NCBI GenBank assembly: GCA_030655315.1
Contig: JAURVT010000032.1
Coordinates: 1 to 64,000 of the forward strand
From: Nocardioidaceae bacterium
Lineage (GTDB): Bacteria > Actinomycetota > Actinomycetes > Propionibacteriales > Nocardioidaceae
DNA: 64,000 nucleotides
Direction: 5' to 3'
Shown here: positions 47,939 to 64,000 of the stretch, one piece after another
How positions within the stretch are numbered: the stretch's first letter is position 1
Layout: each line of letters starts with the position of its first letter
Notes under the pieces: generated by a model
Told to the model about the DNA's origin: nothing
The model's database searches: none
What the model saw: only the letters and a program-made list of their open reading frames with translations
Made by a program: the position numbers and the translations under genes

Positions 47939-48004
47939 GGTGGGACCAGGGTAGGCAGCGGCGTGCCCACCCCGGGGACGAACCACCGAAACCTCAGCGT
48001 GGTC

Positions 48005-48757
48005 TCAGCCGCCGAGGTGCGTGGCCACGAAGGCCGTGACCACGGCCGCGAGCTCGGGGCGGCACACGAGCACGTCGGGCAGCCAGGGGTCCTCGCGGTT
48101 GTAGACCAGGGCCGAGCCGTCGGCGCGGCTGGTGTGCAGGCCGCTCGCGCGGGCCACGACGACCGGCGCAGCGGAGTCCCACTCGTACTGGCCGCCCGCG
48201 TGCACGTAGACGTCGGTCAGGTCGCGCACCACCGACATCGCCTTGACGCCCGCCGAGCCCATGGGCACCAGCTCGGCGCCGAGCGCCTCGGCCAGGGCGG
48301 TGACGAACTCCGGGGCGCGGCTGCGGCTCACCGCGATCCGCGGGCGGCCGTCGCCCGGGGGCGGGAGGACGGTCGGGCTATCGGTGCCGAAGGTCTCGCC
48401 CAGCGCCGGCTGGGCCACCGCGCCGGCGACGAGGTCCCCGTCCTGCCACAGGGCGACGTGCACCGCCCAGTCGTCGCGGGGCGGCTCACTGAACTCCCGG
48501 GTGCCGTCGAGCGGGTCGACGATCCAGACCCGCCGGGCCGTGGACCGGTCGCCGACGTCGGACCCCTCCTCGCTGAGCACCGCGTCGTCCGGACGCAGCT
48601 CGCCCAGCATCCGCACCAGCAGGTCGTGGGCGGCGCGATCGCCGGCGTCCTTCAGCTCGCTGCCCTGCAGTCCCTGCTCGCGGACGGCGAGCAGCTCGTT
48701 CCCCGCGGCGTCGGCGAGGTGGCGGGCGAGGGCGTGGTCGTCGCTCAGGTCGGTCAC
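48005..48757 (-). CDS. cysQ: CysQ-like 3'(2'),5'-bisphosphate nucleotidase / inositol monophosphatase family
   Basis: The 250-residue enzyme has the metal-binding motifs LSEEG, WIVDPLDGTREF and GGQYEWDSAAPVVVA, the last being typical of CysQ. It probably hydrolyses PAP or PAPS, or a sugar phosphate. The GTG start lies six bases after a CACAAT box, so the gene appears leaderless. It is 34 bases downstream of the cytidylyltransferase on the same strand. Confidence 0.9.
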   Translation of the reverse strand: MTDLSDDHALARHLADAAGNELLAVREQGLQGSELKDAGDRAAHDLLVRMLGELRPDDAVLSEEGSDVGDRSTARRVWIVDPLDGTREFSEPPRDDWAVHVALWQDGDLVAGAVAQPALGETFGTDSPTVLPPPGDGRPRIAVSRSRAPEFVTALAEALGAELVPMGSAGVKAMSVVRDLTDVYVHAGGQYEWDSAAPVVVARASGLHTSRADGSALVYNREDPWLPDVLVCRPELAAVVTAFVATHLGG

Positions 48758-48763
48758 GCCGAC

Positions 48764-48769
48764 ATTGTG
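48764..48769 (-). promoter_or_regulatory. -10 box of a leaderless promoter (cysQ)
   Basis: CACAAT on the - strand, six bases before the GTG at 48757. Confidence 0.5.
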
Positions 48770-48791
48770 GTCCCCGCGGCGCGGGCGGTGC

Positions 48792-49247
48792 TCAGGAGGT
48801 GGCCGCACGCACGGACGCGTCAGTGTGCTCGGTCTCGGCCAGCACCGTGGAGAGCGCCCGGCGCAGCATCGAGCTCGACGTGTGCACCGTGTAGGGGAAG
48901 TACACGACCTCCACGCCGACGGCCGCGAAGTCGGCCTCGAGCTGGTCGCCCTTGGGGGTGCCGCGCCAGTCGTCGCCCTTGAAGATGCGGTGGAAGCCGA
49001 CCGATCGCCAGGTCTCGACCTTGTCGGGCACGACCTCTTCGTGCACCTCGTCGACGTAGGAGATGTGTCGCACGATCTCGGCACGCTCGGCCAGCGGGAC
49101 GAACGGCGTGCGGCCCGTCAGGGCCAGCATCTCGTCGGACACGACGCCTGCGACGAGGTGGTCGCAGTGGCTCTTGGCGTGCTTGAGGATGTTGAGGTGT
49201 CCGACGTGGAACAGGTCGTAGGCACCGGGTGCGTAGCCGATGATCAT
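48792..49247 (-). CDS. Glycerol-3-phosphate cytidylyltransferase-like nucleotidyltransferase
   Basis: The 151-residue protein has GAYDLFHVGHLNILKHAKSH with the HxGH pair (His14, His17), FVPLAERAEIVRHI and the C-terminal HTSSSMLRRAL, which correspond to the TagD/GCT fold. It would make a CDP-alcohol such as CDP-glycerol. The CDP-alcohol phosphatidyltransferase at 53789-54550 may use a related type of compound, although it is not adjacent. A TAGGAT box lies about 40 bases before the ATG. Confidence 0.82.
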   Translation of the reverse strand: MIIGYAPGAYDLFHVGHLNILKHAKSHCDHLVAGVVSDEMLALTGRTPFVPLAERAEIVRHISYVDEVHEEVVPDKVETWRSVGFHRIFKGDDWRGTPKGDQLEADFAAVGVEVVYFPYTVHTSSSMLRRALSTVLAETEHTDASVRAATS

Positions 49248-49512: not shown

Positions 49513-52500
49513 ATGACTCACACGACGACATCCTCCCACGGCGCACACCGCGGCGTCGGAACCTCGCGACCCCTGCGACGGGTGGTCGGCGTCTTCACCA
49601 CCGCGGCCGTGGCCTTCGCGTCGATCCTGACCTTGGGATCGCTCGACGCCGCCTCGGCATCGGCGATCGTCGTCGCGCAGGACGACTTCACCGCTACCCG
49701 AGCCACGGGGTGGGCCGACGCCGCGGTGGGCGGCGCCTACGCGTACTCGACGACGCGCGGCGTCTCCGCCAGCCCGGCCGGCGGCACCATCAGCCTGAAC
49801 CGTGCCGGCGAGGACCGCGTCGTCTCGCTGCCGGCGGTCTCGGCCGCCGACGTCACCCTGTCGACGACCTCGCGCCTGTCCGTCCGCCCCACGGCCGGCT
49901 CGGGCGTCCGCTATGCGATCCGCGTCCGCCAGTCGGGCGCCCGCTCGTACGACGCGCTCGTGCGGGTGCTGCCCACCGGCGGCACACTGCTCTCCCTGGG
50001 CCGCGTGGACGCCAACGGCGTCCGTACCCGCCTCACCGCCGACACCACCCTGGCCTCGGTGTCGGGTCCCGGCGCCGTGCTCGATCTGACGCTGTCGGCG
50101 TCCGGCTCCGGCCCCGTGGCCCTCACGGCCGACGCCACGCTGACCGACGGGACCAGGAAGAGCACCAGGTCGCTGAGCGTCACCGACGCCTCCGCGCAGC
50201 GCCTGACCACGGCAGGCAACGTCGGTGTGTGGGCCTACCTCTCCACCGACACCCCGGCGGCCGCGGTCACCGTGACCTCCCTGAAGGCCACCGCGACGCC
50301 GGTGGTCATGCCCAACAAGGCCCCCACCGCTGCCTTCGGCACCACCACGTCGCGCAAGAGCCTCGAAGCCGCGTTCGACGCCACCGCCTCGAGCGACGCT
50401 GACGGATCGGTCGCCTCCTACGCCTGGAGCTTCGGCGACGGCAGCACGGCTACGGGCGCCTCGACCACGCGTCGCTACGCTCGGGCCGGCACCTACACCG
50501 CCACGCTGACCGTCACCGACGACCGCGGCGCGACCGCCAAGACCACCCGGTCGGTCACCGTGACCGCACCCAACGCGGCACCCGCCGCGACATTCACCGC
50601 CGCGCAGAGGGGCCTGGTGCTCACGGCCGACGCCAGGGGCTCGTCCGACACCGACGGAACCGTCCGCGGGTTCGCCTGGGACTTCGGCGACGGCACCACC
50701 GGCCAGGGCGCGCAGGCCACCCACGCCTACGCCGACGGCGGCTCGTTCGTCGTCACGTTGACCGTCACCGACGACGACGGCGCCACCGCGACCACCACCC
50801 GCACGGTCACCAGCGTCGCCCCCAACAAGGCGCCCACCGCGGCGTTCGCCGCGACGACCCAGCGCAAGGGCCTGCTGGCCACGTTCGACGCCTCGACCTC
50901 GACCGACGCCGACGGCTCCGTCAGGTCCTACCGCTGGGTCTTCGGGGACGGGACCTCGGCCACCGGCGTCACGGCCAGCCGCACCTACGCCCGCCCCGGC
51001 GCCTACGTCGCGACCCTCACCGTGACCGATGACAAGGGCGCCACCGGCACCACGAGCCGCACCGTCACGGTGGCCGGCCCGAACGTCACGCCGACCGCTG
51101 ACCTCGCCGTCGACCAGGACGACCTGGACGTCACGCTCGACGCGTCCGGATCACGCGACGCTGACGGCACCATCGACCGCGTCACCTGGGCCTTCGGCGA
51201 CGGGGCCACCGACACCGGCACCCGCACCGCCCACCACTACGCCAAGGGCGGGCGCTACGTCGTCACCGTCACCGTCACCGACGACGACGGCGCCGTCGCG
51301 ACCGCGAGCCGCCCGCTCGTCGTCACCGACCCGCCGCCGCCGAACCAGGGCCCGGTCGCGGCCTTCACCGCCTCCGAGCGCGACCTCTCGGCCTCGTTCG
51401 ACGCCTCGTCGTCGAGCGACGCGGACGGCACCGTCGACGGGTGGTCGTGGAGCTTCGGCGACGGCACCACCGGCTCCGGCCGCGCCGTCGACCACGTGTA
51501 CCGCGCGGCCGGCACCTACCAGGTCGAGCTCACCGTCACCGACGACGACGGCGCCGTCGACGTGGTCCGCCGCAGCGTGACGGTGGTCGCCCCGAACGCG
51601 GTCCCGATCGCCGCGTTCGTCTCGACCCAGGCGGGACTCACCTCCCGGTTCGACGGCGGCGTCTCGACCGACGTCGATGGCGAGCTCGCCGGCTTCGCCT
51701 GGGGCTTCGGCGACGGCACCACGGGCACCGGCGCCACCCCGAGCCACACCTACGGCACCGCCGGCTCCTACGACGTCACCCTCACGGTGACCGACGATCG
51801 CGGTGCCACCGACAACGTCACCCGCACGGTCACGGTCGCGGCCCCCGCACCGCCCGCTCCCCCGGCCGCACCGGCCGGCGGCAAGCCCAGCGCCGCCACC
51901 ACGGGAATCCCCGCTGGCATCAAGCTGGCCCGCCATGACGGTGACCTGGTGATCACCAAGCCCGGCACCGTCGTCGACGCCCTCGACGTCCACGGCTTCA
52001 TCAACGTCAAGGCGGCCAACGTCACGATCAAGCGGACTCGCGTCCGCGGCGGCGACGTCAGGACGAACACCGGCCTGATCACCAACTACGGCTACCCGGG
52101 CCTGGTGATCGAGGACAGCTACATCGAGCCGGACGTCGCGTCCGTCTACCAGGACGGCATCAAGGGCTGGGAGTACACCGCTCGCCGGGTCCACGTCGTG
52201 GGCGGCGTCGACTCGGCGAAGGTCCAGGGCGACAACGTGCGCATCGAGGACTCCCTGCTGGAGAACACGACGTACTTCGCCAGCGACCCTTACCAGGGCG
52301 GCGGCGCGACGCACAACGACAACGTGCAGATCCAGAAGGGTCGCAACATCGTCATCCGGGGGAACACCATCCGCGGCTCGCAGAACTTCGCCATCCTCGG
52401 TGCCGCCTCCATCGGCGACACGCCCAACCTGGTGGTGGCCGGCAACTGGGTCGACGACGGCCACTGCACGGTCAAGCTCGAGCAGTTCAAGTCCTACGAC

Positions 52501-52653
52501 TTGACCGCCACCGTCACGAACAACAGGTTCGGGCCGAACCGCAAGGTCAAGAGCTGCGTCCTGCTCGCCACGCCGACCACGAACATGACGGCGAGCGGCA
52601 ACGTGTGGGAGTCCAACGGCGCGGACGTGCCGATCCTGCGCAAGGCGAACTGA
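49513..52653 (+). CDS. Large secreted protein: concanavalin-like domain, six PKD repeats, right-handed beta-helix
   Basis: The 1046-residue protein has a signal peptide (residues 1 to about 50), a beta-sandwich-like N-terminal domain (about 51-265, from DDFTATRATGW), six PKD domains of about 85 residues (268-776, each with a version of WSFGDGST and LTVTDD), and a C-terminal beta-helix domain (about 797-1046). That domain has DGIKG, QGGGATHNDNVQIQKGRNI, SQNFAILGAAS and two conserved cysteines in GHCTVKL and VKSCVL. It is presumably exported and attached to surface polysaccharide. No anchoring signal or known lyase residues were recognised. The ATG at 49513 was chosen for the signal peptide. 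Confidence 0.88.
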   Translation: MTHTTTSSHGAHRGVGTSRPLRRVVGVFTTAAVAFASILTLGSLDAASASAIVVAQDDFTATRATGWADAAVGGAYAYSTTRGVSASPAGGTISLNRAGEDRVVSLPAVSAADVTLSTTSRLSVRPTAGSGVRYAIRVRQSGARSYDALVRVLPTGGTLLSLGRVDANGVRTRLTADTTLASVSGPGAVLDLTLSASGSGPVALTADATLTDGTRKSTRSLSVTDASAQRLTTAGNVGVWAYLSTDTPAAAVTVTSLKATATPVVMPNKAPTAAFGTTTSRKSLEAAFDATASSDADGSVASYAWSFGDGSTATGASTTRRYARAGTYTATLTVTDDRGATAKTTRSVTVTAPNAAPAATFTAAQRGLVLTADARGSSDTDGTVRGFAWDFGDGTTGQGAQATHAYADGGSFVVTLTVTDDDGATATTTRTVTSVAPNKAPTAAFAATTQRKGLLATFDASTSTDADGSVRSYRWVFGDGTSATGVTASRTYARPGAYVATLTVTDDKGATGTTSRTVTVAGPNVTPTADLAVDQDDLDVTLDASGSRDADGTIDRVTWAFGDGATDTGTRTAHHYAKGGRYVVTVTVTDDDGAVATASRPLVVTDPPPPNQGPVAAFTASERDLSASFDASSSSDADGTVDGWSWSFGDGTTGSGRAVDHVYRAAGTYQVELTVTDDDGAVDVVRRSVTVVAPNAVPIAAFVSTQAGLTSRFDGGVSTDVDGELAGFAWGFGDGTTGTGATPSHTYGTAGSYDVTLTVTDDRGATDNVTRTVTVAAPAPPAPPAAPAGGKPSAATTGIPAGIKLARHDGDLVITKPGTVVDALDVHGFINVKAANVTIKRTRVRGGDVRTNTGLITNYGYPGLVIEDSYIEPDVASVYQDGIKGWEYTARRVHVVGGVDSAKVQGDNVRIEDSLLENTTYFASDPYQGGGATHNDNVQIQKGRNIVIRGNTIRGSQNFAILGAASIGDTPNLVVAGNWVDDGHCTVKLEQFKSYDLTATVTNNRFGPNRKVKSCVLLATPTTNMTASGNVWESNGADVPILRKAN

Positions 52654-52671
52654 CCGCCGGCACCGGCTTCA

Positions 52672-52705
52672 ACGGCGGGGCCGCCCCTCGGGGCGGCCCC
52701 GCCGT
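52672..52705 (+). terminator. Strong hairpin terminator after the PKD gene
   Basis: A perfect 16-base inverted repeat (ACGGCGGGGCCGCCCC and its inverse) with a minimal loop begins 19 bases after the stop codon. There is no U-tract. Confidence 0.75.
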
Positions 52706-52779
52706 CGTACGTCATGGACCGGGAGCCGCCGGGGACGAACACGACAAACGGTTCCGATTCAGCGGTGGGCGCACGCAAG

Positions 52780-52833
52780 TACCCAACGTTAGGTAGTCTA
52801 CCTATTACGTAGTAGGCCATTTTGAGTACCCAC
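52780..52833 (+). promoter_or_regulatory. Operator-like repeats upstream of the second beta-helix gene
   Basis: TACCCAACGTTAGGTAG (52780-52796) is followed by TCTACCTATTACGTAGTAGG and by GTACCCAC at 52826. The dyads TACC..GGTA match in order and type those before the PKD gene. The surrounding sequence is much richer in A and T than the genes. Confidence 0.55.
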
Positions 52834-52844
52834 TGGAGCCCGTC

Positions 52845-53786
52845 GTGACCCCCAGCACCCGCACCCCCCTCGCCCGCCTCGTCACCTGCACGACGCGCGG
52901 CCTGGCCCTCGTCGTCCCGGCCGTGCTGGCGGTCGGGTTGCTCGCCGTCGGGTCCGGGACGTCCGGCACCACCGACGACCTCGTCCCGGCCGCGGCCGCG
53001 CTGTCCGGTGCCGGCCGCCCTGCGGCGTACAACACGGGGGTGCCGAAGAACCTCAAGCTCAGGGTGCACCGCGGCAACCTCACCATCACCAGGGCCGGCA
53101 CGAAGATCGACGCGATGGACATCCGTGGCTTCGTCTCCATCAAGGCCCCCAACGTCACCATCACCCGCTCGATCGTGCGCGGCGGCACCCCTCCTCGCGA
53201 CAACGTCGGCCTCATCACCAACTACGGCTACCGCAACCTCGTCGTCAGGGCCACCACCCTCAAGGCGACCAAGCAGACGGTGTGGGTCGACGGCATCAAG
53301 GGCTCGAACTTCACCCTCGACAAGGTGCACGTGAGCGGCAACGTCGACTCGGTCAAGATCCAGGGCGACAACGTGAAGATCACCCGCTCCCTCCTCGAGG
53401 ACACCGTCTACTGGAAGAGCGACCCGTTCCAGGGCGGCGGGCCCACCCACAACGACAACATCCAGATCCAGAAGGGCCGCAACATCACGATCGCGCGCAA
53501 CACGATCCGCGGCGCCCAGAACTTCGCGATCCTCGGCGCCGCCTCGATCGGCAACACCCCGAACCTCAAGGTCTTGGACAACTGGGTCGACGGCGGGCAC
53601 TGCACGGTGAAGCTCGAGACCCGCAAGTCCTACGCCCTGCGCGCGACGGTGACCGGCAACGTGTTCGGTCCCAATCGCAAGGTCCAGAGCTGCCCGATGG
53701 TCGCCACGAGCACCGCCACGGTCTCCGCTGCGAACAACCTGCTGGACAGCGGCGACCCCGTCCGCGTGCAGCGCTGGGACGGCTGA
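52845..53786 (+). CDS. Secreted right-handed beta-helix protein
   Basis: The 313-residue protein consists of a signal peptide (TTRGLALVVPAVLAVGLLAVG) and only the beta-helix domain (about residues 65-313), closely similar to the C-terminal domain of the preceding gene product: VDGIKGSNFTLDKVHVSG, QGGGPTHNDNIQIQKGRNI, AQNFAILGAASIG, DGGHCTVKLE, FGPNRKVQSCP. Parallel beta-helices are typical of polysaccharide lyases, epimerases and phage tail spikes, so binding or modification of a sugar polymer is plausible. GGAG lies eight bases before the GTG. Confidence 0.85.
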   Translation: MTPSTRTPLARLVTCTTRGLALVVPAVLAVGLLAVGSGTSGTTDDLVPAAAALSGAGRPAAYNTGVPKNLKLRVHRGNLTITRAGTKIDAMDIRGFVSIKAPNVTITRSIVRGGTPPRDNVGLITNYGYRNLVVRATTLKATKQTVWVDGIKGSNFTLDKVHVSGNVDSVKIQGDNVKITRSLLEDTVYWKSDPFQGGGPTHNDNIQIQKGRNITIARNTIRGAQNFAILGAASIGNTPNLKVLDNWVDGGHCTVKLETRKSYALRATVTGNVFGPNRKVQSCPMVATSTATVSAANNLLDSGDPVRVQRWDG

Positions 53787-53788
53787 GC

Positions 53789-54550
53789 TCAGGCGACTGC
53801 GTCCAGCTGCTGCAGCTCCCGCCACCAGGAGAGCAGCGCGGCGGCCAGTGCCCCGGCCTGGGCGACGAACAGCACCACGTACAGCACGAGGAATCCGGTG
53901 GACCAGGCCACCAGCACGAACGACAGGCACACCGTGCCGTAGTCGATCGGCAGCAGCAGGAACCTGCGGAGCGGGTGCTCCGGTCCGACCTCCGTGCTCG
54001 CCGCTCGACCCGCCGCCGCGCTCTTCGCGCGCAGGCTCGGCAGCAGCAGCATGCCGAAGAAGGTCACCACCGCCGCGGCCTGGAAGGCGAGCGGGACGAG
54101 GAGCAGCGCGTCCGAGTCCGACACGGGGAACCGGTACCAGGAGACGAGCACGGCGGAGTGCAGGGTCACCGTCTTGGTCGCGTCGACCATGTGGTCGAGC
54201 CACTCGCCGCTCAACGAGCCCCCGCCCCGCAGTCGGGACAGCTGGCCGTCCACGGAGTCCATCACGTAGCCCGCCGCGAGCAGGAGGGGCACGGCCACGG
54301 CCAACCACGGCGCCGGGCGGCACGAGGCGAGCAGGACGATCGCGGTGCCGGTCAGGGTGGCACTGACGACCGTCGCCTGGTTGGGGGTGGCGCCCAGGGG
54401 GTGCATCAGCGCGGTCACCTGGCGACCCAGCGGCCGGTTCACGTGCCGGGAGTACGCGGGCGTCCCGCGCGACGGCTTCTGGGCGGCGCGGAGCTGCTCC
54501 AGCGCCTCCCTCCGTGCCGCCGGGAACCCCGCGCTCCCGGTCGGCCTCAC
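53789..54550 (-). CDS. CDP-alcohol phosphatidyltransferase
   Basis: The 253-residue membrane enzyme has about six helices and the complete active-site motif: Asp98, Asp101-Gly102, Ser105-Arg106, Asp119 and Asp123 (MDSVDGQLSRL, then GEWLDHMVD). Ser replaces the usual Ala in DGxxAR. The family transfers a phosphoalcohol from a CDP-alcohol to a lipid or polyprenyl-linked acceptor. In this locus it may start or decorate the surface polymer. The GTG overlaps the dehydrogenase stop (GTGA). The beta-helix gene ends two bases away on the other strand. Confidence 0.9.
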   Translation of the reverse strand: MRPTGSAGFPAARREALEQLRAAQKPSRGTPAYSRHVNRPLGRQVTALMHPLGATPNQATVVSATLTGTAIVLLASCRPAPWLAVAVPLLLAAGYVMDSVDGQLSRLRGGGSLSGEWLDHMVDATKTVTLHSAVLVSWYRFPVSDSDALLLVPLAFQAAAVVTFFGMLLLPSLRAKSAAAGRAASTEVGPEHPLRRFLLLPIDYGTVCLSFVLVAWSTGFLVLYVVLFVAQAGALAAALLSWWRELQQLDAVA

Positions 54551-55812
54551 AGCCGGTGGTCCGTGTCGGTGGCTCCGCGGGTGTCCAGCAGCCGGGTCGC
54601 GCGGGCCACGATCATGTCGAGGTCGTAGGCGGCGTGTTGCTGGAGCAGGATGGACAGGTCGTGCGTCTCGACGGCCTGGAGCACGTCGTCCACCCGTCGG
54701 ACCCCGTCGACGGACCAGGTGCCGACGAACGGGTCGTGGTAGCTCACCTCGGCGCCGAGGGCGAGAAGCCGCTTGGCCAGCGGCACGGCGGGCGACTCGC
54801 GCGGATCGGCGATGTCGGGCTTGTAGGTGACCCCGAGGAGCACGACCGTCGAGCCGCGCACCGCGAGGCTGTCGTCGTTCAGCAGGTTCTGGGCGCGTTG
54901 GGCCACGTAGTGGGGCATGGACGCGTTGATCTCCTGCGCCAGCTCGACGAAGCGGAAGGGGTGGCCGAGCCGCTGCCGGACGCGGTGCGACAGGTAGTTG
55001 GGGTCGATCGGGATGCAGTGGCCGCCGACGCCCGGACCGGGGTAGAACGCCTGAAAGCCGAAGGGCTTGGTGGCCGCGAGGTCGATGACGTTCCACAGGT
55101 CGATGTCGAGGTCGTGGCAGAACTGGGCCATCTCGTTGACCATCGCGATGTTCACGTGCCGGTAGGTGTTCTCCAGCAGCTTGGCCATCTCGGCCTCACG
55201 CAGGCCCCGCGCGGGCACCACGGTGTCGATGAAGCGCTCGTACAGGGCGCGAGCGGTGTCGGTGCACCGCTCGGTGAGGCCGCCCACGACCTTGGGCGTG
55301 TTCGCCACGCCGTAGCGCTGGTTGCCAGGGTCGATGCGCTCGGGGCTGAAGGCCAGCGCGAAGTCCGTGCCGGCCCGCAGGCCCGAGTGCTCCTCGAGGA
55401 TCGGGAGCAGGAACTCCTCGGTCGTGCCCGGGTACGTGGTCGACTCCAGGACGACCAGCGTCCCCGGCGTCAGGTGCTCGCCGATGGAGGTCCCGGCCGA
55501 CCGCACCGCCGACAGGTCGGGTCCGCCATCCTCCGACAGCGGCGTCGGGACGCAGATCACCACTGCCCCCGCGTGGGCCACGACGGACGGGTCGGTGCCC
55601 GCGAGGAATCCTCCGGACGCCATCGCGGTGAGGTCGTCACCGTCCAGGTCGTCCACGTGGGACTCGCCCCGGTTGATGCCGTCGACCACGCGGGAGGAGG
55701 CGTCGAGGCCGCGCACGCGCAGGCCTCGGCGGACGGCCTCCTGCGCGAGCGGGAGGCCGACGTAGCCGAGTCCGACGACGACCAGGTCGACGCGATCGGG
55801 TGAGGTGTCCAC
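54547..55812 (-). CDS. UDP-N-acetyl-D-mannosamine / UDP-sugar 6-dehydrogenase
   Basis: The 421-residue protein has the NAD-binding GLGYVGLPLAQEA at residue 14, the ESTTYPGTTEE loop, the catalytic Cys266 in GPGVGGHCIPIDP and the C-terminal LLGVTYKPDIADPRESPA. It oxidises the C6 of a UDP-HexNAc or UDP-sugar to a uronic acid; WecC/WbpA-like enzymes are closest by motif. It makes an acidic sugar for the surface polysaccharide. The GTG at 55812 begins right before the dinucleotide fold. Upstream, AAGGAT is a weak ribosome site. Confidence 0.93.
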   Translation of the reverse strand: MDTSPDRVDLVVVGLGYVGLPLAQEAVRRGLRVRGLDASSRVVDGINRGESHVDDLDGDDLTAMASGGFLAGTDPSVVAHAGAVVICVPTPLSEDGGPDLSAVRSAGTSIGEHLTPGTLVVLESTTYPGTTEEFLLPILEEHSGLRAGTDFALAFSPERIDPGNQRYGVANTPKVVGGLTERCTDTARALYERFIDTVVPARGLREAEMAKLLENTYRHVNIAMVNEMAQFCHDLDIDLWNVIDLAATKPFGFQAFYPGPGVGGHCIPIDPNYLSHRVRQRLGHPFRFVELAQEINASMPHYVAQRAQNLLNDDSLAVRGSTVVLLGVTYKPDIADPRESPAVPLAKRLLALGAEVSYHDPFVGTWSVDGVRRVDDVLQAVETHDLSILLQQHAAYDLDMIVARATRLLDTRGATDTDHRL

Positions 55813-55879
55813 AGGTGCACATCCTTGTCGCAGTTGCGAGGGGGCCGACCGGGACGGCGGCCGGACCGGGTGGAGCGGG

Positions 55880-56746
55880 TCAGTCCAGCTGCCAGTACTG
55901 GCTGACGAGGTCGCGGGTCGCGACGATGTTGCGACGGCTCGAGGCACCGAACACGATGGACTCGACGTTGGGCTGCTCGCAGACCCAGCCGATCGCCTCG
56001 TCGGCCGGGATCGCGCCCGAGGCGAAGACCGACATGGCGATCGCGCGCCACTGGCGGTCGCGGAGCAAGGACTGGTAGGCCTGCACGCCCCCCGACATCC
56101 GGAAGCCGACCTTGTTGAGGTTCGTGCACACCACCGGGTTCTCGATGCCGACCGACTCGAGGGTGTCGAGCAGCATCGGAGCGTTCATCGTGATGAATCC
56201 CGGCTCGGCGCCATAGCGGCCCCGGACGTGCTCGGCGAAGATGCGGAACGCGTCGTCGAAGCCGAGTCCGAGCAGCAGGTCGACGACCACGTTCTGAAGG
56301 AAGACCACGGGGGTGCGCAGCCCCTCGAACATCTTCATCTCGGCGTCGATGAGCAGCGTGGTGACGCCCTCGATGTCCTTGCGGGCGAGCGCGGAGCCGC
56401 CGCGCCGGGCCGCGTCGAGGAAGCCGCCGTCGGGCAGGAACTTGCGGATCGCGCCGAGCGGACCCTCGTCGGTCATGGCGTTGGCGTACTTGTGTGCGTA
56501 CGGCATGCAGGGCAAGAACGTCATGTCGGCGTAGCGCTCGGGCTGGGCCCGGACATGGTCGGCGACCAGCTCGATCCGCTCGTGGGTCGTGCACATGAAC
56601 GTCGTGACGCGCTCGTCGTAGGCGTCGTCGAGGACGTCCTGGACCACCGAGATGTCCTGGAACCGCATCGCCTGCGCGCGCGCCTTCTCCTCGGACATGT
56701 GATTGATCCCGAAGAACTGGTTGTCACCCAGCATCAGACGGTCCAC
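55880..56746 (-). CDS. TIM-barrel (aldo/keto reductase-like) protein of polysaccharide loci, function unknown
   Basis: The 288-residue protein starts VDRLMLGDNQFFGINHMSEE and contains TTFMCTTHERIELVADHV, FLPCMPYAHKYANAM, KDIEGVTTLLIDAEMKMF and SIVFGASSRRNIV. I recall the same type of protein beside Gfo/Idh oxidoreductases and UDP-sugar dehydrogenases in other surface-sugar loci, mostly without an assigned role. The phosphate-binding-like GASSR loop near the end resembles aldo-keto reductases, but a clear catalytic Tyr/Lys set is not evident. It lies 67 bases upstream of the dehydrogenase and 58 bases downstream of the oxidoreductase gene. Confidence 0.75.
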   Translation of the reverse strand: MDRLMLGDNQFFGINHMSEEKARAQAMRFQDISVVQDVLDDAYDERVTTFMCTTHERIELVADHVRAQPERYADMTFLPCMPYAHKYANAMTDEGPLGAIRKFLPDGGFLDAARRGGSALARKDIEGVTTLLIDAEMKMFEGLRTPVVFLQNVVVDLLLGLGFDDAFRIFAEHVRGRYGAEPGFITMNAPMLLDTLESVGIENPVVCTNLNKVGFRMSGGVQAYQSLLRDRQWRAIAMSVFASGAIPADEAIGWVCEQPNVESIVFGASSRRNIVATRDLVSQYWQLD

Positions 56747-56804
56747 GGCTGCACCTCTCCTCTCGACGATCCGGCCCTGCTCTGCCCGCTGCTCCGCCGC
56801 GCCC

Positions 56805-57893
56805 TCACCGGCGCCTCCGCCAGAAGCGGCGCCGGCGCCGCGTGACGGGTGCCGCCGGACGAGTCGACGTCCGGGACGGGTCGCGGGCGTCGAGCAGCAT
56901 CTGGGCCATGGTGCGGTCGGTGACGGCCGCCTCGTCGAAGGCGTTGACGTCGTCGAGGTCGCCCCGCGCGATGCGCCCGACGAAGCGGTCCAGCTGGGCG
57001 CTGTACTCCTCGCCGCGCAGGTAGAACCACACCGGCTCGGTGAGGTCGGTCGTGTACCGCACGTTCCAGCCCGCCTCGTAGCCGTCGGGGACGGCTGCGC
57101 CCTCGCGCAGGTAGGTCTGGCACTCCTGGCGGTCGGCGAAGATCCGGCCCTGGGTGCCCCAGACGGTGATCTTGGTCGACATCTTGCGCTGCGACTCATC
57201 ACTCCAGTTGACCGACAGCTGGGCGGTCGCGTCGGACTCGAACATCATCGTGCTGAGCACGGTGTCGTCGATGTCGGCGGAGAACACGCTGTTCAAGACG
57301 GTGCCTCGCACGTCCACGGGCTCGCCCAGGTACCAGTTGACGAGGTTGAGGGGGTGCGCCGCGTAGTCGTACAGGCTGCCGCCGCCCTCGGAGCGCCGCG
57401 AGCGCCAGGTGCCGCCCTGCTCCTTGAGCACGACCGGGCCGTAGGCCTCGGCGAGGACGTGCGTCACCCGCCCGATCGCGCCGGCGTCGAGGAGACGCTT
57501 GACCTCGGCGAACGCGCCGACGAACCGGTAGTGGTACCCGACCTGCGTGACGAGACCGCGCTCGCGCGCCAGCTCGCTGAGCGCCAGCGAGTCGGCCGGG
57601 TCGAGGCAGAACGGCTTCTCGCAGAACACGTGGAGGCCGCGCTCGAGCGCGGTGCGCACCATCGGCGCGTGCAGCCGCGACGGCGTCGAGATCACGAGGG
57701 CGTCCAGCTCCGTGGCAGCCAGCATCTCCTCGAGGTCGCCGTATGTGGGCACCCCGGTGTACTTGCCGAGCACGCCCAGCATGTAGCCCGAAGAGTCGCA
57801 CACGCCGACCACCTCGACGTCCGGGTGGGCCCGGAGCATGGACAGATGGGACAGGCCCATCTTGCCCAGCCCCACGACTCCGATGCGGGTCAC
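56805..57893 (-). CDS. Gfo/Idh/MocA family oxidoreductase
   Basis: The 362-residue protein has the NAD(P)-binding GVVGLGKMGLSHLSML, the VFCEKPFCLDP motif with the family lysine, and GGGSLYDYAAHPLNLVNWYL with the catalytic-type Asp/His. It oxidises or reduces a sugar or UDP-sugar, for example in making 3-amino or 3-keto sugars. The Arg-rich C-terminus (residues 345-362) is unusual. The GTG overlaps the stop of the glycosyltransferase upstream (GTGA), indicating a coupled operon. Confidence 0.92.
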   Translation of the reverse strand: MTRIGVVGLGKMGLSHLSMLRAHPDVEVVGVCDSSGYMLGVLGKYTGVPTYGDLEEMLAATELDALVISTPSRLHAPMVRTALERGLHVFCEKPFCLDPADSLALSELARERGLVTQVGYHYRFVGAFAEVKRLLDAGAIGRVTHVLAEAYGPVVLKEQGGTWRSRRSEGGGSLYDYAAHPLNLVNWYLGEPVDVRGTVLNSVFSADIDDTVLSTMMFESDATAQLSVNWSDESQRKMSTKITVWGTQGRIFADRQECQTYLREGAAVPDGYEAGWNVRYTTDLTEPVWFYLRGEEYSAQLDRFVGRIARGDLDDVNAFDEAAVTDRTMAQMLLDARDPSRTSTRPAAPVTRRRRRFWRRRR

Positions 57894-59038
57894 GCTCTCT
57901 CCGTCCTGTTGGTGCGCCGACGTCGGCGCGCGTTCTTCTGCACGAGCTCGAGGAGCAGCTCCTCGTACTCGCCCGCGACCTGCTCCCAGGTGAACTCGCT
58001 GCGGTGCCGCTCTCGGGCCGCGGCCGACAGCCTCGCCGCGACGCCCGGTGACTCCAGGAGCTCGTCGACCCGACGGCCCGCCTCACGGGCGTCGCGGAAG
58101 TACAGGGCCGCGTCCTGCGCGACCCAGCGGTTGTAGGGGTTGTCGTGGGCGATCACGGGGTTGCCCGCCGCGAGCGCCTCGACGAGCGAGGGATTGGTTC
58201 CCCCGACGGTGTGCCCGTGCAGGTAGCCCAGCGAGTGCAGGCGCAGCGCGTCCAACCGCGGCCGGTCGTAGACGCCACCGACGAACTGCACCTCGTCGCT
58301 CGCGGCCGCGAACACCTCCCGGTGGTACTCGTCGGCGCCTGGGTCGTACCCGCCCACGACCACCAGCCGGCGCCCCCGCAGGCGCTCGGAGAAACCCCGC
58401 ACGATCTCGAGGATCGAGTTCTCCGGGATCGGGCGCGCAACGAGCGTCAGGTAACCGCCCGGCGTCAGCCCGTAGGGCTCCAGCGCCTCGGTCCCGGCCT
58501 CGTGGACGGCATCGGCGCCGTAGGTGATCATCGTGATCTTGCGGGCCGGAGCCCTTCGACGCAAGTAGGTCTCGATCTCGGGGTGGTCGGCGATCAGGCG
58601 GTCGCCCACCACGCAGCCGATGCGCTCGTTGGCGTACAGGATCCCCTGCTTGACCGGGCCCCACCGGGCGCGCGACCACTCGATGCCGTCCATGTTGATC
58701 GCGTTGGGGATCCTCAGGGCCCGCTGCGCGGTGTTGAGCACGGCCGTGTTGTACCCGAAGGTGAGGCAGACGTCGCGGAAGCGCGACGCGTGCGCCACCG
58801 AGCGGAGGTCGAACTCCGACGTGCCGAGCCAGCCGTCGCGCGCGATCGGGATGTTGACCCGCTCGATGCCCTCCCACCGGTCCTCGGACCGCGGCTGGTC
58901 GCCAGGCACCTGGCAGTAGACGACGACGCGCCAGCCCCGACCGACGAGGAACCGGGCAACGGCCTCGGCCGCGGTCTCGAACCCGCCGTACGCGGCGGGC
59001 ACGCCGTGGGTCCCCAGGATCCGGACGGTGCGGCTCAT
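57890..59038 (-). CDS. GT4 glycosyltransferase with DUF1972 N-terminus (rhamnosyltransferase-like)
   Basis: The 382-residue enzyme starts RILGTHGVPAAYGGFETAAE, the DUF1972 signature, and has INMDGIEWSRARW, TLVARPIPENSILEIVRGF and GHTVGGTNPSLVEALAAGNP with the EX7E-type donor-binding glutamates. Related proteins transfer rhamnose or another sugar onto lipid-linked intermediates in O-antigen and capsule synthesis. The ATG overlaps the stop of the next upstream gene by four bases. Confidence 0.92.
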   Translation of the reverse strand: MSRTVRILGTHGVPAAYGGFETAAEAVARFLVGRGWRVVVYCQVPGDQPRSEDRWEGIERVNIPIARDGWLGTSEFDLRSVAHASRFRDVCLTFGYNTAVLNTAQRALRIPNAINMDGIEWSRARWGPVKQGILYANERIGCVVGDRLIADHPEIETYLRRRAPARKITMITYGADAVHEAGTEALEPYGLTPGGYLTLVARPIPENSILEIVRGFSERLRGRRLVVVGGYDPGADEYHREVFAAASDEVQFVGGVYDRPRLDALRLHSLGYLHGHTVGGTNPSLVEALAAGNPVIAHDNPYNRWVAQDAALYFRDAREAGRRVDELLESPGVAARLSAAARERHRSEFTWEQVAGEYEELLLELVQKNARRRRRTNRTERA

Positions 59039-60198
59039 CGCGACCCGGCGGGCGGGTCGAGCTCGTCGGCGACCTTGCGCAGCTCGACCGCGTAGCGCTC
59101 CAGGGAAAACCGGTCGACGGCCTCCGCGCGGGCCTGTGCTGCGAGGTCCTCGGCGAGCCGCGGGTCGTCCATCAGTCGCGCGATAGCGGCCGTCATGCCG
59201 TCCACGTCCTCGGCCTCGACGAGCAGCCCGGTGCGCCCGTCGGCGATGGACTCGAGGTGCCCCTGCGCGGCGGTGGCCACGACGGGACGCAGGGCGAGCT
59301 GCGCCTCGACGACGGCATTGCCGAACGGCTCGCGCAGGGACGGGGCGACGACCGCGTCCGAACTCTCGAGCGCGCTCCAGATAGGAGAGGTGTAGCCCCC
59401 GAATGTCACTGCCCCGCGCAGGTCGGGGCGCGCCGCCCGCTCCTTCAGCTCCTCCAAGTACCACTCGTAGCCGTCGAACACCGACCCGTGGAGGTCGACG
59501 ACGACGTCGCGACCCTGCTCGCGCAGACGGGCCGTGGCCTCGAGTGCGAGGTGCGGGGCCTTGCGCGGCGACAGGCGGGCGACGACCGCGAGACGGAACG
59601 GCGAGCCCCGTCGGGCCGGGACGGGCGGCTCGGGCGGCTGCGGCACGCCGTTGTAGACGAGCCGAGCGCGCGTGTGCAGTCGCGGGTGTGCCGCGAGCAT
59701 GGCGTCGAGGACCGAGCGGCTGATGACGACCACCGCGTCGGCGAGCAGCAGCGGCGCGAGCAGCGCCTGGCGCACGACCTTGCGATCGGTCGTCTCGGCC
59801 TCGTGGAGGTGGCACAGCACGGGCGTACGGGCCACGCGCGCCGCCAGGATCCACCACGGCAGCGTGATCGTGTTGACGTAGACCAGGTCCGGACGCATGC
59901 GGCGCGTGACCAGCGCCATCCTCGGCACGGCCAGGAGCGCCTGCAGCAGCATCGCCGCGAACGCCAGCGGCGACTGGTTGGCTCGGCGCAAGACCGGGAA
60001 CGAGACGAACCGGACCTCGGCCCCGCGGTCACGCAGCCGGGGGACGAGCCGGCCGTCGGCCGGCATCATCACGACGACGTGCCACCCGCCGTCGACCAGG
60101 GCGGACACGCTCTCCAACATCTGGAGGTCCGAGCCGTAGACGTCGGCGGAGGGGTTGGCGATCAGGACCGTCCTCGAAGCCCGCGCGGCCCTCGACAT
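59035..60198 (-). CDS. GT4 family glycosyltransferase
   Basis: The 387-residue protein has the GT-B layout: the N-terminal acceptor domain with NPSADVYGSDLQMLESVSAL, and the C-terminal domain with LAVVARLSPRKAPHLALEA and VVAPSLREPFGNAVVEAQLA (the E(F/Y)GxxxxEA donor site). It is the first gene of a - strand operon of six genes running to 53789. The ATG at 60198 has AGGGGGAG close upstream; a TACGAT box lies at 60252-60257. Confidence 0.92.
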   Translation of the reverse strand: MSRAARASRTVLIANPSADVYGSDLQMLESVSALVDGGWHVVVMMPADGRLVPRLRDRGAEVRFVSFPVLRRANQSPLAFAAMLLQALLAVPRMALVTRRMRPDLVYVNTITLPWWILAARVARTPVLCHLHEAETTDRKVVRQALLAPLLLADAVVVISRSVLDAMLAAHPRLHTRARLVYNGVPQPPEPPVPARRGSPFRLAVVARLSPRKAPHLALEATARLREQGRDVVVDLHGSVFDGYEWYLEELKERAARPDLRGAVTFGGYTSPIWSALESSDAVVAPSLREPFGNAVVEAQLALRPVVATAAQGHLESIADGRTGLLVEAEDVDGMTAAIARLMDDPRLAEDLAAQARAEAVDRFSLERYAVELRKVADELDPPAGSR

Positions 60199-60251
60199 AC
60201 AGCTCCCCCTGGTCGTCGTCGACGCACCCGTGCCCGGCGTCGGCACTGGTC

Positions 60252-60257
60252 ATCGTA
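60252..60257 (-). promoter_or_regulatory. -10-like box of the glycosyltransferase operon
   Basis: TACGAT on the - strand, about 54 bases before the ATG at 60198. No clear -35. Confidence 0.35.
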
Positions 60258-60270
60258 GTGCCACGAGCAC

Positions 60271-60309
60271 GACGACGAGGCCGCTTCTCCCGAGCGCGGC
60301 CCCGTCGTC
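60271..60309 (-). terminator. Hairpin terminator after the third beta-helix gene
   Basis: GACGACGAGGCCGC (60271-60284) pairs with GCGGCCCCGTCGTC (60296-60309) except at one position, loop 11 bases. It lies 23 bases beyond the beta-helix stop codon in the direction of transcription. Confidence 0.65.
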
Positions 60310-60332
60310 GTCCTTCAGCGGTGCGTCCTCGC

Positions 60333-62138
60333 TCAGGAGGGGGTGCGAGTCAGCGGCACAGCCGACCCGTCCTTGCTCCGCGTGTTGCCGCTCACTGATG
60401 CCTTGACCGCCGGGGTGGCAACCAGCGGGCAGCTCTGCACCTTGCGGTTGGGACCGAAGGAGTTACCCGTCACGGACGCGCTGAGGGAGTGACCCGACAG
60501 CGTCTGGAGCTTGACCGTGCAGTGGCCGCCGTCGAGGTAGTTGTCGGCGATCGTCAGGTCGGGGACGTTGCCCTTGGACGCGGCACCGAGGATCGCGAAG
60601 TTCTGCGCGCCACGGATCGTGTTTCCGAGGATCTGGATGTTCCGGCCCTGCTGGATCTGGATGTTGTCGTTGTGCGTGGGCCCGCCACCTTGGTACGGGT
60701 CCTTCGCGAACCACTGCGTGTTCTCGAGCAGCGAGTCCTCGATCCGGACGTTGTCACCCTGGATCTTCACCGAGTCGACGTTGCCGACCACGTGCACTCG
60801 TCGTGCGGTGAAGTCCGAGCCCTTGATGCCGTCGATGCCCACCGACGGCCTCTGCGCCTTGAGCAGCACGTCCTGGATGACCAGCCCGTCGAAGCCGTAG
60901 TTGGTCACCAGCCCGACGTTGTCCGTCGCGGTGCCGCCCCGCACGATCGAGTTCTTGATCGTCACGTTGGGTGCGCGCACGGTGACGAAGCCGTAGATGT
61001 CGAGGCCGTCCAGGACGGTGCCGGCCTGGGTGACCGTGATGTCGCCGTCGTGACGCCGGAGCGACGTGCCGTTCGGGACGCCGGTCGTCTGGTCCGTCGG
61101 GTAGACGGAGGCACCCTGGGCCTCGGCGACCTTGAACGTGCGCTTGACCGGTGACGCGTCGGCGCCCGAGGAGGAGACGGCGCTGACCGTGAAGACGTGC
61201 GTGCCTGGGCGCAGGCCCTCGTAGCGCTGGGGGGCGGTGCACGCGCGCGGCGCGCCACCGTCCATGGAGCACCGGAAGGTCGAGCCGGCCGTGGTGGCGG
61301 TGAAGCTGAACGAGACAGTCGGGGTCTGCGTGGCCCCCTCGGCCGGACCGGCCGTCAGCCGCGTGTCGGGAACCGGGACGGGCGCCGGGGTCGGCGTCGG
61401 GGTGGGCGTCGGCGTCGGGGTGGGCGTCGGCGTCGGGGTGGGCGTCGGCGTGGGCGTGGGGGGCGGCGTGCTCGGGTCCGGCAGCTCGGACACCCCGCGA
61501 GGCGTGTAGGGCACCTGGACCGGCCCACTGGCCGAAGAGGAGAGGTAGGCCCAGGCGTCGACGCCGCCCTCGCCGGTGATTGCCTCAGCGGAACGGTCGA
61601 CGTACTCCTGCTGCCAGCCCGGCTTGGTGGTGCCCTCGCGCCAGGCCCGCACCTGGAGCTTGGGGTCGTCGTCACCGGTGACCCGGCTCTCCAGGCGCAG
61701 GATGTCGCCCGTGGCGACCGCGCCTCCGGTCGGCACGCTGAGCAGGAGGGTGTCCCGCCCGCCACGCTGACGGCTGAACCCGACGAACAACCGGCCCCCG
61801 GGTGCGACCCGGGCCCGGGCGCGATAGGCCGTGGCCCCGTCGCTTCGCAGCTTGGTGCCGAACCAGACACCGTCGCCGCTGACCGCGGGGACCGTGAAGG
61901 ACATCGCAGCGTCGGTGTCGCCCAGATCGCCCTTCTGCACCACGGCGGTGGCGGTGGTCCCCGGAGTCAGGGAGAAGGACGGGCCGCCGGTGCCGGCGGT
62001 CGCCGACGACAGGGCACCGGCGCCGAGCGCCAGCGTGCCGAAAAGGGCGAGAAGTCGGGTGCGGTGACCGGAGCGGGGACGACGCACGCCGCCCGCTCGA
62101 TGGGACTGGGCGACGCTCTGCTGGGGGTCGTGCTGCAT
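60333..62138 (-). CDS. Secreted beta-helix protein with Pro-Thr linker
   Basis: The 601-residue protein has a signal peptide (RLLALFGTLALGAGALSSA), a beta-sandwich-like domain (about 51-215, similar in outline to the one in the PKD protein, with WAYLSSSASGP), a Thr-Pro repeat linker (about 222-252), an HYR/Ig-like domain (about 255-335, FRCSMDGGAPRACTAPQRYE) and the common beta-helix domain (about 345-601). The last contains VGIDGIKGSDFTARRVHV, QGGGPTHNDNIQIQQGRNI, AQNFAILGAAS and the GHCTVKL and VQSCP cysteines. GAGGAAG precedes the ATG. It is the third copy of this domain in 13 kb. Confidence 0.87.
   Translation of the reverse strand: MQHDPQQSVAQSHRAGGVRRPRSGHRTRLLALFGTLALGAGALSSATAGTGGPSFSLTPGTTATAVVQKGDLGDTDAAMSFTVPAVSGDGVWFGTKLRSDGATAYRARARVAPGGRLFVGFSRQRGGRDTLLLSVPTGGAVATGDILRLESRVTGDDDPKLQVRAWREGTTKPGWQQEYVDRSAEAITGEGGVDAWAYLSSSASGPVQVPYTPRGVSELPDPSTPPPTPTPTPTPTPTPTPTPTPTPTPTPAPVPVPDTRLTAGPAEGATQTPTVSFSFTATTAGSTFRCSMDGGAPRACTAPQRYEGLRPGTHVFTVSAVSSSGADASPVKRTFKVAEAQGASVYPTDQTTGVPNGTSLRRHDGDITVTQAGTVLDGLDIYGFVTVRAPNVTIKNSIVRGGTATDNVGLVTNYGFDGLVIQDVLLKAQRPSVGIDGIKGSDFTARRVHVVGNVDSVKIQGDNVRIEDSLLENTQWFAKDPYQGGGPTHNDNIQIQQGRNIQILGNTIRGAQNFAILGAASKGNVPDLTIADNYLDGGHCTVKLQTLSGHSLSASVTGNSFGPNRKVQSCPLVATPAVKASVSGNTRSKDGSAVPLTRTPS
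61387..61469. repeat. Tandem 18-base repeat coding for the Thr-Pro linker
   Basis: The unit GTCGGCGTCGGGGTGGGC recurs about four times with slight variation. It encodes alternating Pro and Thr on the - strand. Repeat number is likely to vary between strains. Confidence 0.8.
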
Positions 62139-63116: not shown

Positions 63117-64000
63117 ATGGGACCGACCGACGGACCACGACCGCGACGGGCACCTGCGGCGACGCACGCGGGCTCCAGCCTCACCGACCTGCGCGACCAC
63201 CTGTCCGCGGTGGGCCGCTTCTGGCGCTCGGCCTCGGCCTGCGTGGTCGTGTGCGTAGCCCTCGCCCTGGTCCTGACCTGGCGTGCCGAGCCCCAGTACC
63301 AGACCTCCACCACCTTCTTCGCCTCCTCCGCCACCCAAGGGGACAGCTCGGCACTCCAGGCCGACGAGTTCGCCCAACGACGCGTCAACTCCTACGTGGG
63401 CGTCGTCCGCAGCGAGCGCATGGCCCGCGAGGTCATCGCCGACACAGGCCTCGAGCTCAGCCCGGCCACGGTCATCAGCAAGATCCAGGCCTCCGTCGAT
63501 CCCGACACCGTCCTGCTGAACGTGCAGGTCATCGACAGCTCTCGCGAGCGCTCGCTCGCGATCGCACGAGCCATCACCGCGAACCTGGGCCGGACGATCG
63601 CCGACCTCGACAGCGGTCAAGACAGTGCCACCGTGCAGCTGCAGGACATCTCCGGGCCCACGGTGGCTGCCGAACCAGTGTCGCCGCGGCCCGTCCTCAA
63701 CCTGGCCGTCGGCCTCCTCCTGGGACTGGTGCTGGCCATCGGGCAGGCCATCGTCCGCCAGCAGCTCGACACCACCCTGCGCACGCGCGAGGAACTCGTC
63801 GCCGCGACCCGGCACCCCGTGCTGGGCCTCGTGAATCGCGATCCCGGGTTTCGCCGCACCCCCGTCCTCGTCTCGGGCTCTGCGCACTCACGGCGCGCCG
63901 AGAGCTTCCGCCAGCTCCGCACCGGCCTGCGCTTCATCGACGCCGCCGAGAAGCTCGAGGTGCTGGTCGTCACCTCGTCGGTCGAGAGCGAGGGCAAGAC
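63117..64000 (+). CDS. Wzz/CpsD-type polysaccharide chain-length regulator and tyrosine kinase (3' end outside window)
   Basis: The frame is open from the ATG at 63117 to the end of the window (294 complete codons). It shows the Wzz pattern: a cytoplasmic N-terminus, a first membrane helix (ASACVVVCVALALVLTW), an outer helical domain, and a second helix (LNLAVGLLLGLVLAIGQAIV) preceded by a Pro-rich PRP segment. A cytoplasmic BY-kinase domain then begins (AESFRQLRTGLRFI, LVVTSSVESEGKT, the last entering the Walker A motif). Such proteins control polymer length and export. Confidence 0.9.
   Translation, partial: MGPTDGPRPRRAPAATHAGSSLTDLRDHLSAVGRFWRSASACVVVCVALALVLTWRAEPQYQTSTTFFASSATQGDSSALQADEFAQRRVNSYVGVVRSERMAREVIADTGLELSPATVISKIQASVDPDTVLLNVQVIDSSRERSLAIARAITANLGRTIADLDSGQDSATVQLQDISGPTVAAEPVSPRPVLNLAVGLLLGLVLAIGQAIVRQQLDTTLRTREELVAATRHPVLGLVNRDPGFRRTPVLVSGSAHSRRAESFRQLRTGLRFIDAAEKLEVLVVTSSVESEGK

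Follow-up and report, generated by a model that had tools for sequence, protein, structure and literature searches.

The first 64,000 nucleotides of contig JAURVT010000032.1 from a Nocardioidaceae bacterium (GCA_030655315.1), here called the window, encode three putatively secreted proteins with a common C-terminal domain, about 260 residues long. This domain is predicted to fold into a right-handed ß-helix, and its genes lie in and beside an exopolysaccharide (EPS) locus. Export of the three proteins is suggested by N-terminal signal peptides recognised by eye in the translations. Their parts are as follows (pLDDT, predicted local distance difference test; residue numbering throughout is that of protein 2).

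49513..52653, + strand: protein 1, 1046 residues; signal peptide (read by eye), lectin-like domain, six PKD repeats, C-terminal ß-helix
49633..50322, + strand: predicted lectin-like domain (ConA/legume-lectin-like), N-terminal in protein 1
50314..51837, + strand: six PKD repeats of protein 1 (PF18911, six stretches)
51862..52650, + strand: ß-helix domain of protein 1
52845..53786, + strand: protein 2, 313 residues; signal peptide or membrane anchor (read by eye), then bare ß-helix
52992..53783, + strand: ß-helix domain of protein 2 (predicted structure, pLDDT 90.6)
53448..53450, + strand: codon of His202 (in THNDN) of protein 2, invariant in 102/102 aligned domains
60333..62138, - strand: protein 3, 601 residues; signal peptide (read by eye), lectin-like domain, Thr-Pro linker, Ig-like region, C-terminal ß-helix
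61464..62021, - strand: predicted lectin-like domain of protein 3
61357..61463, - strand: Thr-Pro linker of protein 3, read from the translation
60336..61127, - strand: ß-helix domain of protein 3

A preliminary description, made from the sequence alone, had reported these three reading frames and a shared domain carrying the strings DGIKG, THNDN, NFAILGAAS, GHCTVKL and FGPNRKV. The frames are present, and all three proteins contain the strings in that order, together with two cysteines. Searched in full (4.18 Mb in 57 contigs), the genome yielded exactly three full copies of the domain, all at this locus. Proteins 1 and 3 match the domain of protein 2 with 59–62% identity (E 2.8e-99 and 1.1e-95; 58–62% for all pairs), and the next match reaches only E 0.18, which places the likeness far beyond chance. 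The proteins had been said to differ only in what precedes the domain. Their carriers do differ, but the domains themselves also differ at about 40% of positions. Pfam bears out the six PKD repeats of protein 1. In protein 3 the Thr-Pro linker can be read in the translation, but the proposed Ig-like domain has no Pfam match at E up to 1.

The two long proteins have a second domain in common, which the preliminary description had overlooked. Their N-terminal parts are related (33% identity over 129 residues, E 9e-10), and the model of this domain (pLDDT 77.8) resembles concanavalin-like folds, namely the CBM2 module of phage J-1 Dit (Z 17.8), ERGIC-53 (Z 17.6) and legume lectins (Z 16–17). A lectin-like fold is thus predicted. 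With E limited to 0.001, the domain is found four times in the genome, of which three occurrences belong to this locus, and it forms the C-terminus of a 1635-residue beta-propeller-like/laminin-G/PKD protein further along the contig.

The ß-helix itself was modelled with AlphaFold2 on an 11-row alignment, and the right-handed ß-helix proposed earlier is borne out by this predicted structure (pLDDT 90.6 for the domain of protein 2). The model was compared with known folds using Foldseek and a second aligner (VIA, Z scores). Foldseek ranks the mannuronan epimerase AlgE4 first (2pyg; E 6.3e-4, TMq, the query TM score, 0.52), and its near folds also include pectate lyases and polygalacturonases. 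The second aligner places the Dettilon tailspike at the top (Z 22.7, root-mean-square deviation (rmsd) 3.5, 233 residues aligned). The alginate lyase 6kfn, which we take to belong to family PL31, reaches Z 22.5 (rmsd 2.5, 213 aligned), AlgE4 Z 21.6 (rmsd 2.9, 215 aligned) and RbmB Z 20.1 (rmsd 3.1, 217 aligned).

No characterised family claims the domain. Among Pfam, NCBIfam and PDB sequences no family reaches its own cut-off: the Pfam Beta_helix model PF13229 gives 22.4, 13.7 and 13.9 bits in the window proteins, below its gathering cut-off of 25.9 bits (at E up to 0.001 it matches 22 of 59 family members), and the NosD model TIGR04247 gives 19.4 bits at best against a cut-off of 300 bits. 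PDB sequences yielded no match with a single protein, two weak matches with profile A1, and AlgE4 and AlgE6 at E 0.001–0.002 with profile A3. WceF and RbmB are absent among the seven PDB sequences matched by profile A3 at E up to 10; RbmB is near by fold only. The domain was therefore correctly described as lacking a named family, AlgE4 being the best solved relative at only E 0.001. Profile searches did not place it in a characterised lyase or epimerase family either, and the catalytic motif of AlgE falls in another coil. A phage origin was considered and not supported at the sensitivity used: one tblastn query (E 0.01) had no hit among 50,697 phage records, and one pattern confirmed no relative in viral contigs, searches that distant relatives would escape.

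In a first sample, a single-protein search found the domain in 2 of 57 other genomes. With an 11-sequence profile, 55 of the 293 genomes sampled from the order (12 of 38 genera) and 7 of the 396 sampled from the phylum proved to carry it, the window's genome being counted in each. We read 64 loci from 57 genomes, that is, from 56 of the 61 genomes with matches (all but G117, G121, G193, G265 and G563) plus Actinotalea. Genes were called with a simple codon-position script. Together the loci hold 102 ß-helix reading frames, and 29 of them carry two to four copies, one of these loci including a copy cut by a contig end. Four near-duplicate genomes are included in the 64 loci and were omitted from the tests of within-locus likeness and from the cross-genome tests.

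The link to polysaccharide genes, suggested earlier for the window, extends to the family. At least three kinds of EPS genes are present in 49 of the 64 loci, whereas the 40 control regions, drawn from the same genomes at a distance of 300 kb (32) or less on short contigs (eight), include one such case. The EPS marker profiles were built from the target loci themselves and thus favour the targets, and a second test therefore used Pfam. For 22 loci of each kind, target and control, chosen by their order in the list, it covered the six closest genes, giving 132 proteins per arm (the near-duplicate pair G213 and G258 is in both arms). The targets gave PF13692 (GT4) 14 times, PF00534 12, PF00535 (GT2) 10, PF04932 (Wzy_C) eight, UDP-sugar dehydrogenase four, polysaccharide deacetylase four and pyruvyl transferase three times. 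In the controls, among the 25 of 179 families listed, PF00535 occurs twice and low-molecular-weight phosphatase three times, the latter being a family also found at the window's EPS locus.

The association is seen outside the Actinomycetota as well. On pSymB of Sinorhizobium meliloti and in Pararhizobium qamdonense, two copies stand side by side near genes for Wzz, a CpsD-like kinase and a sugar transferase, and a second Pararhizobium (sp. A13) has at least one copy in the same setting. Within the Actinomycetota, two copies in Nonomuraea enclose a run of EPS genes. A protein of about 390–410 residues without a Pfam match (L117:16259-17422, L180:3229-4464) was observed in nine of the 64 actinobacterial loci, and the same family (profile E 6e-155) occurs in a Pararhizobium EPS locus with wecB/wecC/TagA-type genes.

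This distribution bears on the idea that the proteins are enzymes directed against foreign polysaccharides, from plants or competitors, and that the EPS genes merely adjoin them. Pectate lyases and polygalacturonases are among the nearest folds, and secreted glycoside hydrolases often bear carriers of the PKD, CBM60 or lectin-like type. A major facilitator superfamily (MFS) transporter recurs in 20 of the 64 loci. However, the EPS linkage holds in several genera and in two phyla, and apart from the MFS transporter no uptake or sugar-utilisation family appears among the annotated recurrent neighbours (20 of 34 families annotated by library). We consider a foreign substrate unlikely.

The domain is C-terminal in all 102 frames, with 1–51 and mostly fewer than ten residues after it, and what stands in front of it varies widely. 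Pfam searches of 100 of the 102 N-terminal parts (E up to 0.001) identified DUF4082 in 36, CWB2 and CBM60 in two each, and PKD, F5/8C, DUF4214, SLH and Big_3_5 once each. A rough pattern search added eight lipobox-like sites, some of them doubtful. In 37 of 48 within-locus pairs (one with a cut partner) the N-terminal parts have no BLAST similarity, and their lengths, counted from the preceding stop codon, differ by at least 100 residues in 19 of 28 loci. A set of ß-helices on different carriers had been proposed for the window, where they are lectin-like/PKD, bare and lectin-like/linker, and varied carriers are indeed the pattern elsewhere. Rhizobial proteins have the reverse order: among five copies inspected by eye, three have RTX-like repeats behind the ß-helix, one has a low-complexity tail there and one ends shortly after the domain. 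In Pararhizobium sp. A13 a large DUF4082-annotated protein (L182:1-2752) stands at the EPS locus of a ß-helix/calcium-binding protein; DUF4082 may thus be tied to such EPS loci outside the Actinomycetota too. Three single frames (L069:9907-11334, L072:10537-12033 and L098:8571-10112) contain a partial second ß-helix match ahead of the full one, which may reflect past duplication of the domain.

While the carriers of a locus diverge, its ß-helices are often alike. Across 28 multi-copy loci, 45 of 65 genes have their closest ß-helix match within their own locus, compared with a mean of 1.0 and a maximum of 6 in 1000 label shuffles; shared ancestry of neighbours adds to this likeness, so the shuffle is not a strict null. 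The domain tree is a quick version. Of these genes, 34 have some N-terminal relative; their closest N-terminal part comes from their own locus in six cases, their closest ß-helix in 26. At the DNA level, comparison of within-locus pairs with at least 80% domain identity revealed five loci in which a copy is largely confined to the domain: L060 (98.4% over 749 nucleotides), L072 (99.4% over 771), L098 (97.3% over 824), L012 (94.9% over 750 in one pair, another pair extending about 110 nucleotides upstream) and L076 (93.4% over 744, genes on opposite strands). The copy in L113 reaches about 550 nucleotides further upstream, and those in L070 and L077 are more diverged. From the near-identical stretches we infer copying of the domain alone. 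The copies in the window are only about 60% alike, and no recent copying is therefore seen there.

Repeated cassettes of this kind could also serve recombination-based variation of the cell surface. The near-identical stretches in L060, L072 and L098 do lie in otherwise different genes, and copies stand on opposite strands in L013, L014, L076, L078 and L092. Yet copying makes copies alike and not different, no recombinase is found among the recurrent neighbours annotated (20 of 34 families), and the window copies are only about 60% alike. Such a role appears very improbable.

Taken together, the domain defines a recurrent, modular, EPS-linked family of putatively exported ß-helix proteins whose domains are often alike within a locus. 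In the window's genome, the neighbouring genes named in the preliminary description (UDPG_MGDP_dh, CDP-OH_P_transf, two GT4 enzymes and Gfo/Idh) are all present:

46835..47986, - strand: LytR-CpsA-Psr protein (PF03816)
48792..49247, - strand: cytidylyltransferase-like enzyme (PF01467)
53789..54640, - strand: CDP-alcohol phosphatidyltransferase-like enzyme (PF01066)
54547..55803, - strand: UDP-glucose/GDP-mannose dehydrogenase (PF03721, PF00984, PF03720)
55880..56758, - strand: protein without Pfam match within the EPS gene run
56805..57893, - strand: Gfo/Idh/MocA oxidoreductase
57890..59062, - strand: GT4 glycosyltransferase, DUF1972 type
59035..60246, - strand: GT4 glycosyltransferase, the next gene after protein 3 on the same strand
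63210..64000, + strand: start of a Wzz-like chain-length protein (GNVR E 2.9e-4, below cut-off; first 263 residues scanned)

The window ends inside this locus, which continues to about 79 kb on the same contig (C55). The remainder encodes Wzz-like and Wzy-like proteins (both below Pfam cut-offs), a methyltransferase, a GT2 enzyme, Wzx, two beta-propeller-like proteins, a low-molecular-weight phosphatase and a priming sugar transferase. It includes the only Bac_transf-type priming transferase match of the genome (C55:77635-78198) and its best Wzx match (C55:69135-70010). The two beta-propeller-like proteins (C55:70311-77011, also L159:6311-13011) are exported and similar in their N-terminal parts; in the longer one these are joined by two laminin-G domains and four PKD repeats, and it also carries the lectin-like domain seen in proteins 1 and 3. 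Beside protein 1, LytR-CpsA-Psr, inositol-monophosphatase-like and cytidylyltransferase-like genes (46835-49247, - strand) hint at a wall-attached, perhaps phosphate-containing polymer; the LytR-CpsA-Psr family attaches polymers to peptidoglycan. The flank was read by eye as pth, rplY and prs both here and at the Actinotalea locus L012, so the two loci probably occupy one shared chromosomal site.

Conservation within the domain is sparse. Only Gly65 and His202 never vary where present. His202 is found in all 102 domains and in 7 of 7 plasmid-borne relatives (four records). Position 204 is Asp in about two thirds of the domains and position 185 is His in 83% (both weighted), but protein 2 has Glu185. 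The two cysteines taken for invariant in the preliminary description are constant in the window trio, but both aligned columns are Cys in just 10 of the 102 domains, and we rejected them as a family mark. The sequence DPH occurs in four of the 102 domains, in three of them at the invariant His; the window copies read THND, and in some relatives, including some rhizobial copies, the site reads DPHYDG. The His of the DPHD motif is proposed, according to PMC4444821, to abstract the proton in AlgG and AlgE. Identity of His202 with this AlgE/AlgG histidine is unsupported. The profile alignment places the AlgE motif in another coil, and the likeness of DPHYDG to DPHD is therefore a lead only.

Our preferred interpretation, to which we assign a probability of about 0.55, is that the three proteins are extracellular modules on exchangeable carriers that modify or otherwise handle the cell's own EPS. 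They would form the extracellular half of the EPS system. The C-terminal ß-helix would recognise the polymer made by the genes between and beside the three, and would most likely modify it, with lyase, epimerase or hydrolase chemistry at the invariant His202. The front end would determine where the ß-helix acts. In the short protein 2 it would work close to the cell, and in proteins 1 and 3 it would sit at the tip of a long spacer (PKD or Thr-Pro), accompanied by a lectin-like domain. At related loci the front ends vary (DUF4082, CWB2, SLH, CBM60, F5/8C, PKD, Ig and probable lipoprotein anchors) while the ß-helices of any one locus tend to resemble each other, a likeness that in some loci seems to come from copying just the domain.

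Several observations weigh against this interpretation. His202 is the single invariant polar residue of the family, and well-studied lyases keep several. Non-enzyme folds are also among the close matches of the model (NosD Z 20.7, Vag8 20.7, pertactin 20.0, the adhesin PfbA 19.8); the fold matches of the model lie close together in Z, and a common fold as such would say nothing on function. Genes for UDP-sugar dehydrogenase are present in 20 of the 64 loci, so a uronic-acid substrate is not general. The homologues are not scattered at random with respect to polysaccharide genes, but 10 of the 64 loci show fewer than two EPS marker kinds, a Microvirga plasmid copy (at the one place read of three) has no EPS family beside it, and a single copy on a Streptomycetaceae plasmid has no adjoining EPS genes. 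Nor is the expectation supported that the type of ß-helix follows the polymerase: across genomes, ß-helix identity shows a Spearman correlation of 0.07 with that of Wzy (153 of 999 permutations as high), and it does not track Wzz, the decarboxylase, GNAT or deacetylase. It tracks GT2 weakly (0.24, 14/999) and UDP-sugar dehydrogenase (0.34, 1/999). The likeness within loci suggests specificity for the polymer, but the polymerase comparison speaks against a simple match of domain and polymer.

A non-catalytic role has to be considered as well. Here, the ß-helix would be a C-terminal tether to EPS in a matrix protein whose front end holds the polymer to the wall or joins chains. The strictly terminal position of the domain, carriers such as CWB2, SLH, CBM60, F5/8C and PKD, the lone invariant polar residue and the adhesins and other non-enzymes among the near folds all fit this idea, and the available part of PMC7949094 describes WceF, a ß-helix enzyme of an EPS cluster, as also aggregating its polymer. 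Conversely, many of the nearest folds are enzymes, and an invariant His beside a mostly-Asp and a mostly-His position resembles an active site.

Genes of the PEP-CTERM type add to this question. Within the order sample of 293 genomes, the exosortase A-associated decarboxylase TIGR03099 scores over its cut-off in 25, every one of which also belongs to the 55 ß-helix genomes (Fisher p 3e-21, with kinship of the genomes ignored). In 24 of the 25 it lies on the ß-helix contig, at a median distance of 3 kb and within 15 kb in 22 cases (distances computed by hand). Exosortase and first TIGR03099 searches covered 54 of the 56 domain-bearing genomes whose loci were read (without G236 and G311). Exosortase is over cut-off in only one of these 54, and the window's genome has no match to it at E 0.001. 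It is as if the domain had replaced the exosortase tag, which would favour the tether. Against this, TIGR03099 is not over cut-off in the window's own genome, and the rule that it never occurs without the domain holds in the order (25/25) but is broken in the phylum sample by G460, which has TIGR03099 over cut-off and no ß-helix in the profile search or in the 40 kb read. In 22 further phylum genomes TIGR03099 falls below cut-off and the profile search finds no domain; two of these were read and lack it. Examples of TIGR03099 at actinobacterial EPS loci are G074:C15:548051-549244 and G037:C1:3756991-3758184, and some such loci also hold ligase-like and carrier-protein genes. On balance, we regard the tether as possible but less probable than a role in modifying or handling EPS.

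A bolder proposal is that the ß-helix acts, instead of or besides being an enzyme, as a folded, locus-specific address tag that docks unrelated surface proteins on the cell's own EPS, is kept alike by cassette copying and replaces the exosortase/PEP-CTERM tag in loci sharing PEP-CTERM-type genes. This seems doubtful to us.

If the three proteins are indeed EPS-handling modules, they touch on a process that is, to our knowledge, poorly known, namely the extracellular handling of their own polysaccharide by bacteria without an outer membrane. A single profile now marks an exported protein set at EPS loci of Actinomycetota and rhizobia and points to EPS loci that share PEP-CTERM-type genes and have no exosortase. 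About a hundred proteins are named as candidates for assays, and the pSymB pair of Sinorhizobium meliloti offers a workable model. We noticed no publication on this protein set in the literature searched, whose coverage leaves most subscription journals outside.

Several known systems resemble parts of this arrangement. As with depolymerases of the WceF and RbmB kind, the window proteins are encoded in or beside a polymer locus, and the same is true at 49 of the 64 loci. WceF, the stewartan hydrolase of Pantoea stewartii, is a ß-helix encoded in an EPS cluster that acts on its own EPS; in the available part of PMC7949094 it is a tailspike-like trimer and a single protein, unlike a set with exchangeable N-terminal carriers. 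RbmB, the Vibrio polysaccharide (VPS) lyase of Vibrio cholerae, has a similar fold and acts on its own matrix polysaccharide, but it has no sequence match in our PDB search and the part of PMC11637428 available mentions no carrier modules. Bcam1339 of Burkholderia cenocepacia is likewise listed as a parallel ß-helix protein in an EPS cluster, but is given as TIGR03805 in the portion of PMC3584217 at hand, and TIGR03805 is not among the NCBIfam matches of the window proteins. In PEP-CTERM/exosortase A EPS systems the resemblance lies in TIGR03099, over cut-off in 25 of the 54 domain-bearing genomes. The difference lies in the near absence of exosortase described above, and the few residues that mostly follow the domain are too few for a sorting tag.

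The mannuronan C-5 epimerases AlgE1-7 of Azotobacter vinelandii are likewise a secreted ß-helix set with varying accessory modules, and six of the seven AlgE genes are clustered in the genome (PMC4444821, as far as available). The weak profile match (E 0.001) and the RTX-like repeats of three of five rhizobial relatives point in the same direction. In contrast, the window proteins have no DPHD motif, the DPH of AlgE is aligned with a different coil, and the AlgE R-modules stand behind the A-module whereas accessory modules of the window type stand in front. A new type of surface system, as first suggested, thus overstates the case in part: EPS-cluster ß-helix enzymes such as WceF and RbmB and the modular AlgE1-7 are known. 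As a kind, the family extends this set. Its novelty lies in carriers that can be exchanged, in DNA copies whose limits fall near the domain, and in the link to PEP-type loci that lack exosortase.

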